Below, piece after piece: positions 3,089-48,496 of a stretch of 64,000 nucleotides of DNA. The notes below the pieces were generated by a model, which worked only from the letters and a program-made list of their open reading frames with translations, had not been told where the DNA came from and did not search any database. Origin of the DNA: Chryseobacterium jejuense (GTDB lineage: Bacteria; Bacteroidota; Bacteroidia; Flavobacteriales; Weeksellaceae); the NCBI RefSeq assembly GCF_900100075.1, contig NZ_FNEG01000008.1:1-64000 (forward strand). The letters are read 5' to 3'. A program made the position numbers and the translations under genes. The first letter of the stretch is position 1, and every line of letters starts with the position of its first letter.

Positions 3089-3230
3089 AAATAAAAAAAG
3101 ACCTACATTTCTGTAAGTCTTTTTTGCTCCTCCTGCTGGGCTCGAACCAGCGACCCTCTGATTAACAGTCAGATGCTCTAACCAACTGAGCTAAGGAGGA
3201 ATGTCCTTTGTTTTAAGTGGTGCAAATATA
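3089..3230. repeat. 142-bp direct repeat, copy B (whole tRNA-Asn unit)
   Basis: Second copy of the repeat at 935-1076. It again spans terminator, tRNA and -7 box, and diverges immediately outside these limits. The sharp edges argue for a recent duplication or homologous event rather than an old tandem tRNA array. Confidence 0.9.
3127..3200 (-). tRNA. tRNA-Asn (anticodon GTT), copy B
   Basis: Base-for-base the same as copy A, with its own TATATTTG -7 box at 3223-3230. A TTTG lies 20 nt further upstream in unrelated flanking sequence, so this copy also has a plausible complete promoter. Confidence 0.95.
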
Positions 3231-44437: not shown

Positions 44438-44441
44438 ATAC

Positions 44442-44479
44442 AAAGGCAAATTTGCAAATCAGCAGGTTTGCCTTTTTTT
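44442..44479 (+). terminator. Terminator after the GH13 gene
   Basis: AAAGGCAAA (44442-44450) with TTTGCCTTT (44467-44475) and a T run; isolates the GH13 gene from the riboswitch transcript. Confidence 0.8.
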
Positions 44480-44500
44480 CTTCAAAGGAATGAGTCTCTT

Positions 44501-44531
44501 TTTGCATATTTGAAAAATAAGTCTACCTTTG
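44501..44531 (+). promoter_or_regulatory. Promoter of the riboswitch transcript (TTTG-N19-TACCTTTG)
   Basis: Both consensus boxes are complete, with the -33 TTTG at 44501-44504 and the -7 box at 44524-44531. Transcription should start about 44538, right at the riboswitch P1 stem. Confidence 0.75.
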
Positions 44532-44539
44532 CACTAGAT

Positions 44540-44640
44540 TTATCAAGAAAGGTGGAGGGATTTGGCCCAATGAAACCTTAGCAACCAACACAATTCCAGA
44601 AGTGTAAAGGTGCTAATTCCAACCCGATGGGGGAGATAAG
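44540..44640 (+). ncRNA. SAM-I riboswitch (S-box)
   Basis: The conserved SAM-I bases are in order: TTATC of P1 with AAGAAAGGTGGAGGGA, GGCCCAATGAAACCT, AGCAACC, the AAGGTGCTAATTCC core, and GGGGGAGATAA closing P1 (44635-44639 pairs with 44540-44544). It lies in the leader of the TonB-dependent receptor gene. A 7-bp hairpin TCTGCAG/CTGCGGA (44690-44709) lies between it and the start, without a T run, so control may be at translation. Binding of S-adenosylmethionine normally switches expression off. Confidence 0.93.
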
Positions 44641-44736
44641 TGAAGTCAATATTTCTTATATGAATTCCATTTCTTGAAGTCTTGTGTATCTGCAGAACGA
44701 TCTGCGGAAGAATATTATTAATTGGCAAGAACAAAG

Positions 44737-47190
44737 ATGAAAAAATTAAGTACAGCTGTATTATTACTGGGAACAATTTTAGTTGCTGCTCAGGAGCAGG
44801 AAGAAAAAGGAAAACAAATCGAAGACATCATCATCGTCGGAAACCGTAACGTTAAAAGAACAAAGCTGGAAACTCCGGTGCCTGTGGATGTTATCAATAT
44901 CGATAAAGTTCAAAGATCGTCTCCACAAATGACGGCTCAGGACCTTCTGAACTATGTTATTCCTTCCTTCAATGCTGTAAGACAATCCGCGTCTGATGGA
45001 ACAGAGCATATTGATCCTGTAACGTTAAGAGGAATGGGTCCGGATCAGGTTTTAGTACTGCTTAATGGGAAAAGAAGACATACCACTTCACTGGTTAATT
45101 ATCAGAATACAGTAGGAAATGGATCTGTAGGAACAGATTTAAGTACCATTCCTGTTATTGCCATAGAAAAAATTGAAGTATTAAGAGATGGTGCGGCTGC
45201 ACAATACGGGTCCGATGCTATTGCCGGGGTTATCAATATTATTTTAAAAAAGAATGCAGGTGCTTCTGCAAGTTTAACCTATGGATTAAGTGGAAGAAAT
45301 GATGGAGATACTTATCAGGCAGGTGTAAACTATGGAACTTCTTTGGGTAAAAATGACGGATTTATCAATCTTTCATTACAACTAAGCCACAGAGGAAAAA
45401 CAACGAGAACTCAAAATCATAATCTTGATATTTTCGGGAATAATTTCGCTTATGAATTTGCTGGTGATGCTGAAGCTATACAAGCTGCCAGGGATGCGGA
45501 TGACGCGAAGATTAAAGAAAGAGGATTAACGAGAGATGATTTCAATTTCCAGATTGGAGATGCACAGATCAGACAGGGACAATTGTTTTTCAATTCAGAA
45601 TATCCTTTGAATGATCATTTTAAATTCTATTCTTTTGGAGGTTTCAGCATTAAAGAAGGAAAAGGATACGGCTTCAGAAGACTTCCTAATGAAGACTTTA
45701 ATATTGTGAAAGCAATTTATCCTAACGGTTTTCAGGCCGTTCTGAATTCTCAGATTTATGATATTTCCTATGCAGTAGGAGCAAAATATAATGTAAACGA
45801 TTGGTTGATTGATCTTAGTAATACTTTTGGAAGCAATACCTTCAATTATAACGTAAGCAATACCAATAATGCCTCTCTGGGGATCAAATCACCAACCCGT
45901 TTTTATGCAGGAGCGCATAGCTTCTTGCAAAATACAGTGAATCTTGATGTTTCGAAAAAGATAAAGAACTTCAATATTGCATTCGGAGGAGAATTCAGGT
46001 TTGAACAATATCAGATCAAAGCAGGAGATGAGGCTTCTTACACTCAATATGATGAGAATGGAAATGTGGCAACAAAAGATTCTAAAGTGATAGGAGCTGG
46101 AGGTTCGCAATCCTTCATTGGTTTTTCACCGGATAATGCTTTGAAAAAAGACAGACATTCTACAGCGGTATATGCTGATATTTCCTATGATTTGGATAAA
46201 AAACTGAATATTGATGCCGCTGCCAGATTTGAAAACTACTCGGATTTTGGAAGTACCCTGAACGGAAAACTTGCCGTGAGATATGAATTTGTAAAAAATT
46301 ACGCTATAAGAGCAGCAGTTGGAACAGGGTTCAGAGCACCATCCCTTCAGCAACAGTATTTTAACAACTCTTTTGCTGATATTTCTACTTCCGGTTCCGG
46401 AATTGTTAGGAAAGGAATCTTCAATAACGATAGCCAGGCCGCACAAGTTCTGGGATTTGATAAATTAAAGCAGGAAACCTCAGTTAATGGAAGCGCAGGA
46501 TTTACCCTACAGCCCATTAAAGGACTCTTTATTACGGTAGATGGATATATCATTAAAGTGAAAGACAGAATTGTCATTACCAGCAATATCACGGATTCAA
46601 GATTGTCTGATCCTAAAGTGGTAGGAGAAGGAAATGCAGTGGAAAGCGGCAGATTCTTTGCCAATGCCATTGATACCGAAACAAAAGGATTAGATGTAGT
46701 CGTTTCCTATGATTGGAAGCTGGCTGGCGGAAGCTTAAATATTAACCTTGCCGGAAATTATACCGAAACAAAAATTACAGATTTTCACTTCCCGGAAAAC
46801 CTTGGAACTCCACAAAATGAATTCTTTGGCCCGGATCAGATCAACATTATTGAAACCCTTTCTCCTAAAACAAAAGCTTCATTGGGGCTAACGTATGGAA
46901 TAGGTAAATTCAATTTTCTCGTGAGAAATACCTATTTTGGTAAAGTAATAAGAGACGGTTACCCTTTCGGAGAAGTTCAGGAATTTTCTCCAAAAGTGAT
47001 TACTGATGTTAGTGTAGGATATGATATCACAAAAAATATCAACTTTACAGTAGGAGCCAACAACGTATTTGATGTTTTCCCGGATCTTCAGAGCTATAAA
47101 AATTCATATTATGGAGTATTTAAATATGCGCCGGTTCAGATGGGAACATTGGGAAGCTATTTCTTCGGAAGGCTTAATTTTAATTTTTAA
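44737..47190 (+). CDS. TonB-dependent receptor under SAM-I control
   Basis: 817 aa from ATG 44737; a TTG five codons earlier would spoil the signal peptide (MKKLSTAVLLLGTILVAA|QE). The plug domain starts near 20, with the TonB-box-like EDIIIVGNRN and LLNYVIPSF, LRGMGPDQVLVLLNGKR and IERIEVLRDG-type VLRDGAAAQYGSDAIAGVIN. The rest is a 22-strand barrel ending in Phe. No N-terminal carboxypeptidase-like domain and no SusD partner. The SAM-I leader and the permease 7 bp downstream point to uptake of methionine or a related sulfur compound. Substrate is inferred. Confidence 0.88.
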   Translation: MKKLSTAVLLLGTILVAAQEQEEKGKQIEDIIIVGNRNVKRTKLETPVPVDVINIDKVQRSSPQMTAQDLLNYVIPSFNAVRQSASDGTEHIDPVTLRGMGPDQVLVLLNGKRRHTTSLVNYQNTVGNGSVGTDLSTIPVIAIEKIEVLRDGAAAQYGSDAIAGVINIILKKNAGASASLTYGLSGRNDGDTYQAGVNYGTSLGKNDGFINLSLQLSHRGKTTRTQNHNLDIFGNNFAYEFAGDAEAIQAARDADDAKIKERGLTRDDFNFQIGDAQIRQGQLFFNSEYPLNDHFKFYSFGGFSIKEGKGYGFRRLPNEDFNIVKAIYPNGFQAVLNSQIYDISYAVGAKYNVNDWLIDLSNTFGSNTFNYNVSNTNNASLGIKSPTRFYAGAHSFLQNTVNLDVSKKIKNFNIAFGGEFRFEQYQIKAGDEASYTQYDENGNVATKDSKVIGAGGSQSFIGFSPDNALKKDRHSTAVYADISYDLDKKLNIDAAARFENYSDFGSTLNGKLAVRYEFVKNYAIRAAVGTGFRAPSLQQQYFNNSFADISTSGSGIVRKGIFNNDSQAAQVLGFDKLKQETSVNGSAGFTLQPIKGLFITVDGYIIKVKDRIVITSNITDSRLSDPKVVGEGNAVESGRFFANAIDTETKGLDVVVSYDWKLAGGSLNINLAGNYTETKITDFHFPENLGTPQNEFFGPDQINIIETLSPKTKASLGLTYGIGKFNFLVRNTYFGKVIRDGYPFGEVQEFSPKVITDVSVGYDITKNINFTVGANNVFDVFPDLQSYKNSYYGVFKYAPVQMGTLGSYFFGRLNFNF

Positions 47191-47197
47191 TGAGTAA

Positions 47198-48496
47198 ATG
47201 AGTACTGCTTCACATCAGATCGGCTGGAAAACAGCCGCAGCCATCGTAGTTTCCAATATGATAGGAACGGGGATTTTTACAACCCTGGGATTTCAGTTAT
47301 CCGATATTACCAATACCTACAGTATTTTCCTGTTATGGGTAATCGGAGGAATTCTGGCACTGTTTGGTGCCTTTTGCTATGCGGAATTAGGATCCCATTT
47401 TAAAGGAAACGGTGGTGATTTTATTTATCTTAAAGAAACCTATCATCCTTTATTTGGTTATCTGATAAGCTGGGTTTCCCTGATTATCGGGTTTTCTTCG
47501 CCTGTTGCGTTGGCAGCATTGGCCATGTCGAAATATCTTTCCGTATTTGATTATTCCTTTGGAAATGGTTTTGCGATTGCAGCCATATTTTTGGTGGCTA
47601 TAACGCTATCATTCAGTTTAAAGACTTCAAGCCGTTTTCATAACTTTTTCACGTTTATCAAGATTGCTTTTATCATTGTACTGGTGATTCTGGGAGTTGG
47701 ATTATCAGATTCTCCCCAAATTGGAAACAGCTTAAACTTCAGTGACAGCTGGCAGAATGAGATTATGCTTCCTGCCTTTGCAACCTCATTGGTTTTTGTT
47801 ACCTATTCCTATACCGGATGGAATTCAGCGTCTTATATTGCGGGGGAAATAAAAGATGTTCAAAAAAATCTTCCTAAATCACTGATTATAGGAACCGTTT
47901 TTGTGACCATAAGCTATATTCTTGTGAATTACATCATGCTGAAACATGCTCCGGTAGATCAATTGGCAGGAAAAGAAGATGTAATGGGAGAAGCTGCCGT
48001 AAATATGCTGGGACTTTCTTTCGGAAAAATTGTGAATATTTTTATCGCATTACAACTGATTGCAACAATTAGTGGATATCTCTGGGTAGGATCAAGACTT
48101 ACACAGGCTTTTGCAAAAGATACCCGCATCTGGAAACAGCTTTCTGTAGGAAATAAAAAAGGAATTCCGGTAAGAGCCATCTTTGCTCATGCGGTTATCG
48201 CAACGATCATTATTTTAACAGGAAGTTTCAAGGAAATCTTTGTGTATACCGCATTTATCCTTCAGTTATTTGCAAGTTTAGCGATTTCAACCGTGTATTT
48301 TCTTAAAAAGAAGGATAGAAAAATTTTTAAATCCAACGCCTTTTATATTTTCCCGACAGTTTTCTTACTCTTTAGTATTTATATTCTGTACTTTACCTTT
48401 ATTCATAACCCTAAAGAAAGTTTAATAGGGCTGGGAATTATTGCGGTAGGACTTATTTTATATTGGATAGACAGAAGACTTTCCAAGGGAGATTAA
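47198..48496 (+). CDS. APC-family amino-acid permease
   Basis: 432 aa with about twelve membrane segments. It begins GWKTAAAIVVSNMIGTGIFTTLGF, the unwound first helix of APC transporters (GxGIF), and has SYTGWNSASYIAGEIKDVQKNLP in helix 6 and the loop after it. It starts 7 bp after the receptor gene and so shares the SAM-I riboswitch. Inner-membrane transport of methionine or a relative is the best inference; the sequence alone does not fix the substrate. Confidence 0.86.
   Translation: MSTASHQIGWKTAAAIVVSNMIGTGIFTTLGFQLSDITNTYSIFLLWVIGGILALFGAFCYAELGSHFKGNGGDFIYLKETYHPLFGYLISWVSLIIGFSSPVALAALAMSKYLSVFDYSFGNGFAIAAIFLVAITLSFSLKTSSRFHNFFTFIKIAFIIVLVILGVGLSDSPQIGNSLNFSDSWQNEIMLPAFATSLVFVTYSYTGWNSASYIAGEIKDVQKNLPKSLIIGTVFVTISYILVNYIMLKHAPVDQLAGKEDVMGEAAVNMLGLSFGKIVNIFIALQLIATISGYLWVGSRLTQAFAKDTRIWKQLSVGNKKGIPVRAIFAHAVIATIIILTGSFKEIFVYTAFILQLFASLAISTVYFLKKKDRKIFKSNAFYIFPTVFLLFSIYILYFTFIHNPKESLIGLGIIAVGLILYWIDRRLSKGD

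Follow-up and report, generated by a model that had tools for sequence, protein, structure and literature searches.

A SAM-I riboswitch before a TonB-dependent receptor and an amino-acid permease in Chryseobacterium jejuense: a probable SAM-repressed import operon for methionine or a methionine source

TonB-dependent receptors are abundant in the Bacteroidota, and the substrate is known for few of them. What would such a receptor import when its gene stands behind a riboswitch of the SAM-I (S-box) class, whose ligand is S-adenosylmethionine (SAM)? The question is raised by a locus of C. jejuense within positions 1 to 64,000 of contig NZ_FNEG01000008.1 (forward strand; this whole 64,000-nucleotide stretch is called "the window" below), in which a SAM-I aptamer is followed by a TonB-dependent receptor gene and an amino-acid permease gene. 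The first-pass annotation, made from the letters of this DNA, had proposed that the two proteins import methionine or a compound used to make it. Our analysis indicates that the unit is probably a SAM-repressed import operon for methionine or a methionine source. Its parts are as follows.

44442 to 44475, plus strand: intrinsic-terminator-like hairpin 3' of the upstream gene (14-pair stem, then a T run)
44501 to 44531, plus strand: Bacteroidota-type promoter-like site TTTG-N19-TACCTTTG (exact match; second box conserved in the genus leaders)
44537 to 44642, plus strand: SAM-I riboswitch aptamer (RF00162, 80.4 bits, E 2.5e-17)
44543 to 44556, plus strand: P1 (5' side) and the beginning of P2, the predicted anti-sequestrator of the SAM-free fold (pairs with 44666-44677)
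44666 to 44677, plus strand: predicted switching segment, partner of 44543-44556 in the free fold or of the start-codon region when P1 is enforced (folding)
44680 to 44730, plus strand: predicted hairpin that separates the switching segment from the start codon, in both folds (folding)
44732 to 44739, plus strand: start-codon region, predicted to be paired under enforced P1 (folding)
44737 to 47190, plus strand: TonB-dependent receptor of the outer membrane (817 aa) with a FepA/BtuB-like plug and barrel; no adjacent SusD-like gene (Pfam, NCBIfam, PDB sequences, fold search)
47198 to 48496, plus strand: LAT/SLC7-type amino-acid permease of the APC superfamily, 432 aa (PF13520, 180.5 bits; nearest structures b0,+AT, LAT2, xCT and SteT-like)

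The textbook riboswitch core described in the first-pass annotation is present at full length: the RF00162 alignment spans model positions 1-108 of 108, its score is well above the gathering score of 44.4 (cmscan, whole window), and it is the only riboswitch in the whole window that reaches its gathering threshold in the Rfam scan. The aptamer has the sequence and fold of the known SAM-I class, and would be expected to bind SAM; here it heads a TonB receptor and a permease. The promoter-like text is also exact as claimed (TTTG at 44501-44504, a 19-base spacer, and TACCTTTG at 44524-44531). The window has 7 copies of the motif with spacers of 17-21, where 3.43 would be expected, and 7 of 100 shuffles yield as many. 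Taken alone the motif is weak evidence and not significant; the site is credible because it lies directly upstream of the aptamer. The terminator-like hairpin at 44442-44475 argues that the receptor-permease unit is probably independent of the gene before it.

Both genes are what they had been taken for. The receptor has Plug (PF07715, 72.0 bits) and barrel (PF00593, 132.5 bits) domains, and we place its start at the ATG at 44737, where the mechanical list of open reading frames (ORFs) gives a TTG at 44722, because the ORFs of its relatives start at the matching ATG. It scores 22.3 bits with the SusC_RagA signature (cut-off 46.2), and the next gene is the permease. Its structure model has a mean predicted local distance difference test (pLDDT) value of 82.0, and PDB matches include PfeA, PirA and BtuB; its 25 best fold-search hits are siderophore, B12 and other TonB receptors at 14-17% identity, which do not decide the substrate. 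The permease gene begins after a gap of 7 bp, and its product exceeds the PF13520 (AA_permease_2) cut-off of 27 bits severalfold. More specific models fall short: its top NCBIfam match, the L-type amino acid transporter model TIGR00911, gives 176.2 against 701.8 bits, and the L-methionine/branched-chain transporter model PRK11021 gives 68.1 against an equivalog cut-off of 284. LAT1 is also among the best structural matches. LAT-type transporters carry neutral amino acids, including methionine, and b0,+AT and xCT are known for cystine. Because the permease is closest to transporters of these kinds, cystine or another neutral amino acid is a possible cargo. More generally the cargo of the unit would be an amino acid or an amino-acid source, a view based on the permease partner and the SAM control and not on the receptor.

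The C. jejuense genome has three SAM-I elements, of which one leads a methionine synthesis operon (MetX-like first, then MetB-, MetH- and MetF-like, names assigned by reading the sequences), another leads a SusC-like and a SusD-like gene (TIGR04056, 780 bits; PF07980 and PF14322), and the third is the leader of the receptor and permease. It also has five cobalamin riboswitches, and no match to the second SAM-sensing model used here, SAM-I/IV (RF01725), was found in it. A MetN-MetI-MetQ-like operon is present (MetQ identified by PF03180 at 305.1 bits, MetN and MetI from their sequences), and on this ground we rejected the receptor-permease unit as the sole methionine importer. The aptamer before the SusC/SusD pair (L035, 9096-9192) and that of a receptor in genus g9 (L050, 5980-6081) have in common a GACAACC core, with matching changes CTGA/TCAG at the expected pseudoknot, as compared with the usual GCAACC form.

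Within the genus the arrangement is gained and lost together with the riboswitch. SAM-I is present in all 118 genus genomes, and a receptor ortholog (78-100% identity, C. jejuense included, among the matches listed) is found in 67 of them and not in the other 51; four of the 67 are fragmented, partial or contain stops (G169, G173, G202, G245). The genomes with an ortholog have three SAM-I elements in 58 cases and two in 9, and those lacking it have one in 27 and two in 24. In at least 47 of the 67 genomes a SAM-I element lies upstream of the receptor on the same strand, 46 times at 77-110 nt and once at 879 nt, where the protein match is partial. The complete SAM-I-receptor-permease unit of Chryseobacterium contaminans, for example, has a receptor 96% identical to that of the window.

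SAM-I exceeds its cut-off in 120 of 148 genomes of the family and 208 of 295 of the class. We fetched 114 SAM-I loci, picked non-randomly for genus spread and for genomes with several elements, and grouped their first ORFs by similarity clusters; these are 16 members of the receptor superfamily, 4 SusC-like, 79 methionine-synthesis and 15 other or with no ORF called. The first-pass annotation had suggested a search for further TonB receptors with SAM-I leaders, and they were found in four other genera, g21, g17, g9 and g23. Besides the window's own genus (g1), the complete unit with permease occurs in g21 and g17 of the family, with receptors about 60% and permeases 56-60% identical to the window's, while g9 and g23 have SAM-I and a same-superfamily receptor without the permease. 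SusC/SusD pairs behind SAM-I were found in g1 (including C. jejuense), g23 and another family, f41; those of L035 and L109 have Pfam matches. In a Bacteroidetes metagenome-assembled genome (MAG) and a Chitinophagaceae MAG (L150 and L162), whose receptors are relatives of the permease-linked clade described below, a permease (46% and 44% identical) adjoins the receptor with no SAM-I match, so the link between the two genes is wider than the riboswitch. At two further loci (L190, L156) a covariance model, used because a regular expression missed 20 of 133 known SAM-I loci, places SAM-I kilobases from the receptor. Other first genes of SAM-I loci in family f41, named by reading, are a peroxiredoxin-like gene (211 aa; L097, L101) and a cysteine desulphurase-like gene (376-378 aa; L098, L100, L315).

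Receptors of the same superfamily also stand behind SAM-I/IV, which senses SAM with a peripheral structure different from that of SAM-I. In Elizabethkingia miricola (L187) a SAM-I/IV match of 64.7 bits (cut-off 41.1) lies about 380 nt upstream of such a receptor; L294 is nearly identical and has a 62-residue ORF in the interval. SAM-I/IV is over its cut-off in 46 of 148 family genomes, and among 26 loci fetched from the matches listed, five (L290-L294; four from g1, one from g23) have a same-superfamily receptor behind it, five have an NhaC-type transporter (L295 by PF03553 at 92.8 bits; L297, L298, L306 and L324 by eye), and at the other 16 the ORFs are unassigned. MetT is a transporter of the NhaC type. 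A study of the MetJ regulon lists MetT among its members, as a putative transporter for methionine that belongs to the Na+/H+ antiporter family (PMC3228920). Nine RF01725 matches (L299, L300, L302, L304, L305, L308, L325, L328, L329) form a SAM-I/IV-like subtype in which CCAACCGAG and CACGGTGG or TACGGTGG replace GCAACCTGC and CAAGGTGC. Small ORFs of 79-84 aa that are similar by eye follow it in L299, L300, L302, L305 and L329, Pfam gave no match for the proteins behind it in L299 (81 aa) and L304 (201 aa), and this subtype may sense another ligand.

A tree of 101 receptors (quick method; two short receptors excluded) places the 26 SAM-controlled ones in two separated clades. Clade 1 holds the permease-linked receptors (16 rows, all SAM-I), and in clade 2 a SAM-I subclade (4 rows) and a SAM-I/IV subclade (6 rows) are sisters. 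The three riboswitch labels need 3 changes on this tree against a shuffled mean of 24.2; the label "none" comes from scans with models R1 and R2, in some cases over short upstream flanks, and two paralogs from the C. jejuense genome itself were labelled from genome scans. At least four transporter groups, the SusC cases included, are thus under SAM riboswitches, and this repeated recruitment of receptors and SusC proteins makes SAM-controlled import the best reading of the locus. Of the first-pass proposal, then, an import role tied to the methionine economy stands on the conservation, the riboswitch co-occurrence and the other receptors; methionine itself as the cargo does not follow from them.

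How might SAM control this unit? The free leader has a minimum-energy fold of -49.7 kcal/mol in which 44543-44556 pairs with 44666-44677; five core pairs of this helix have probabilities of 0.94-0.99. When P1 is enforced the energy is -46.5 kcal/mol, and 44668-44676 pairs with 44732-44739, which places the CAU at 44668-44670 on the AUG at 44737-44739. The two folds are mutually exclusive. In the predicted mechanism, when SAM is low the 5' P1 strand would pair with the downstream segment, leaving the start codon free, and receptor and permease would be made. The cargo that the TonB-driven receptor takes across the outer membrane would then be free methionine, a short peptide or a sulphur amino acid, for example cystine, and the LAT-type permease would carry an amino acid across the inner membrane. 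When SAM is high the aptamer would be stabilised, P1 would form, and the freed segment would pair with the start codon and stop translation. The leader is thus predicted to be a translational switch without a Shine-Dalgarno site. An intrinsic terminator was rejected as its platform, since within 44440-44760 the terminator-like sites lie only behind the upstream gene. The 5' partner of the switching helix is nearly invariant aptamer core, and an exact 8-10 nt complement of the aptamer's 5' end is found in 12 of 13 receptor-permease leaders (only 5 nt in L085).

The rise in the energy needed to open the start region once P1 forms was compared with that in 30 spacer shuffles per leader, in 85 leaders (100 fetched loci, less 8 with the start more than 260 nt away or no ORF and 8 with other first genes, plus the window). 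Every shuffle was beaten by 18 of 24 MetX-type, 11 of 20 MetH-type and 12 of 24 MetB-type leaders, with median rises of 4.5, 3.7 and 3.1 kcal/mol, respectively; a few leaders changed strongly in the opposite direction (L118, -7.2; L108, -5.5). The 13 permease-type leaders, nine of which are close kin, average 1.80, where the largest of 30 shuffle-set means is 1.12; for the five least related of them the two values are 2.05 and 2.01. In a duplex test, 5' P1 pairing had p <0.05 in 8 of 15 receptor, 20 of 24 MetX-type, 12 of 24 MetB-type and 12 of 20 MetH-type leaders, and start-region pairing in 9 of 24 MetX-type, 7 of 24 MetB-type and 9 of 20 MetH-type leaders. The start-codon platform, as modelled, is well supported for many methionine-synthesis leaders and weakly for the receptor leaders. 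Many MetB-type leaders have a terminator-like hairpin by eye, so action at two levels may occur there. In MetB-type leaders such as L067, L068, L073 and L078, that hairpin is followed by a duplicate of the 3' P1 strand, about GATAAGTTGC, which is able to pair with the 5' strand of P1; the start codon is hidden once P1 forms. Such leaders are possible two-level switches.

Several results weigh against a SAM-repressed methionine import operon, or against the control mechanism proposed for it. Of the 16 receptor leaders, none exceeds all its shuffles and 12 have a rise above 0.5; the window's own rise of 2.8 kcal/mol is not significant (p 0.097, 30 shuffles). In the g17 leader L085 the change has the opposite sign (-1.1), three g9 receptor leaders are unchanged (-0.1 to 0.3) and terminator-like by eye, the genome's own SusC leader is unchanged (+0.1), and start-region pairing beats the shuffles in just 1 of 15 receptor leaders of the duplex test. 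A second SAM-I element is present in 24 of the 51 genus genomes that lack the receptor ortholog, and no SAM-I match was found at the MetN-MetI-MetQ-like operon, a second predicted methionine importer of C. jejuense. There was likewise no SAM-I match near the 50-56% identical receptor relatives in L147, L148, L150 and L162, and no SAM riboswitch was found for the Chryseobacterium receptors L158 and L207, unlabelled rows that sit beside the SAM-I subclade of clade 2. For no member of the group did we find measurements of binding, expression or transport.

The substrate might be narrowed in two ways within the import of methionine or a methionine source. Methionine peptides could pass the receptor and be cleaved in the periplasm, the freed amino acid then entering through the permease. 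RagAB, a SusC/SusD-type pair, imports peptides, and such a pair is under SAM-I control in this same genome; the receptor here has no SusD-like partner, however, and the two-gene unit no peptidase gene, and we consider this version rather unlikely. Import of cystine, or of some other sulphur source from which methionine could be made, would agree with the presence of b0,+AT and xCT beside LAT1 and LAT2 among the permease's best structural relatives and with a SAM-I met operon that makes methionine itself, but the LAT-type relatives score nearly equally and specificity is not decided by sequence; this narrower version seems to us unlikely.

Two other readings take the receptor out of amino-acid import altogether. 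A vitamin B12 importer serving methionine synthase is suggested by a receptor fold near those of BtuB and FepA-type receptors, and btuB has been described as MetJ-controlled in some gammaproteobacteria (PMC3228920). The five cobalamin riboswitches of the genome could serve B12 uptake, however, the partner gene is an amino-acid permease and not BtuCD, and the BtuB model TIGR01779 gives 89.3 bits against a cut-off of 599.7. On the cobalamin riboswitches and the amino-acid partner we rejected the B12 receptor as the preferred explanation, and regard it as very improbable. The top NCBIfam and PDB relatives are FepA-type, so an iron-siderophore receptor might lie behind SAM-I by chance; its score with the FepA siderophore receptor model is far under the curated cut-off (110.2 against 493 bits), and the conserved permease pairing and the repeated SAM control would be left unexplained, and we regard this account, too, as very improbable. 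We retain SAM-repressed import of methionine or a methionine source as the probable function.

A broader proposal is offered tentatively, since we think it somewhat doubtful that both its parts hold. The Weeksellaceae and their relatives would have an outer-membrane methionine-acquisition regulon of at least four TonB-linked groups (receptor with LAT permease, lone receptor, receptor behind SAM-I/IV, and SusC/SusD) under two SAM riboswitch classes, which would make methionine or its peptides a new class of TonB substrate. Jointly with this, a bistable SAM-I switch free of a Shine-Dalgarno site would be frequent in the Bacteroidia, with one segment contested by the start codon and the 5' strand of P1, and with a terminator added in several synthesis leaders.

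Elsewhere in the window, two tRNA-Asn genes with identical match scores lie about 2 kb apart on the minus strand (973-1046 and 3127-3200).

Nutrient riboswitches before TonB receptors are known from cobalamin-btuB and thiamine pyrophosphate-TonB receptor units (PMC2211319 and PMC9723704). The present unit likewise has a riboswitch before a TonB receptor and differs in its SAM ligand class and amino-acid permease partner. Control of uptake by methionine status, one outer-membrane receptor included, is described for the MetJ regulon, with btuB and metNIQ/metT (PMC3228920); MetJ is a protein repressor and its receptor the B12 receptor, whereas here the regulator is a riboswitch. Two Bacteroidaceae regulogs are included in a large survey of riboswitch regulons, the main text of which contains neither "TonB" nor "outer membrane" (PMC3766115). 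In the literature searched (few subscription journals; top matches of long lists) we found no link between a SAM riboswitch and a TonB receptor, with which the novelty claimed earlier for this receptor group is consistent. New here are also the same-superfamily receptors behind SAM-I without a permease and behind SAM-I/IV, and SusC/SusD behind SAM-I. In SAM-I translational switches, one survey places the ribosome-binding site within the 3' side of P1 (PMC2258182), whereas in the present leader the start codon is predicted to be hidden by a segment that otherwise pairs with the 5' P1 strand; the top matches of our literature searches held no description of such a 5' P1/start-codon switch.

For receptors of this kind the riboswitch names the metabolite whose shortage switches the receptor on, and so gives a testable guess at the substrate for several receptor groups. 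If the proposed function is true, an amino acid would join the known cargo of TonB receptors. The predicted switch, in turn, suggests a way in which translation may be blocked in bacteria that rely little on Shine-Dalgarno sites.

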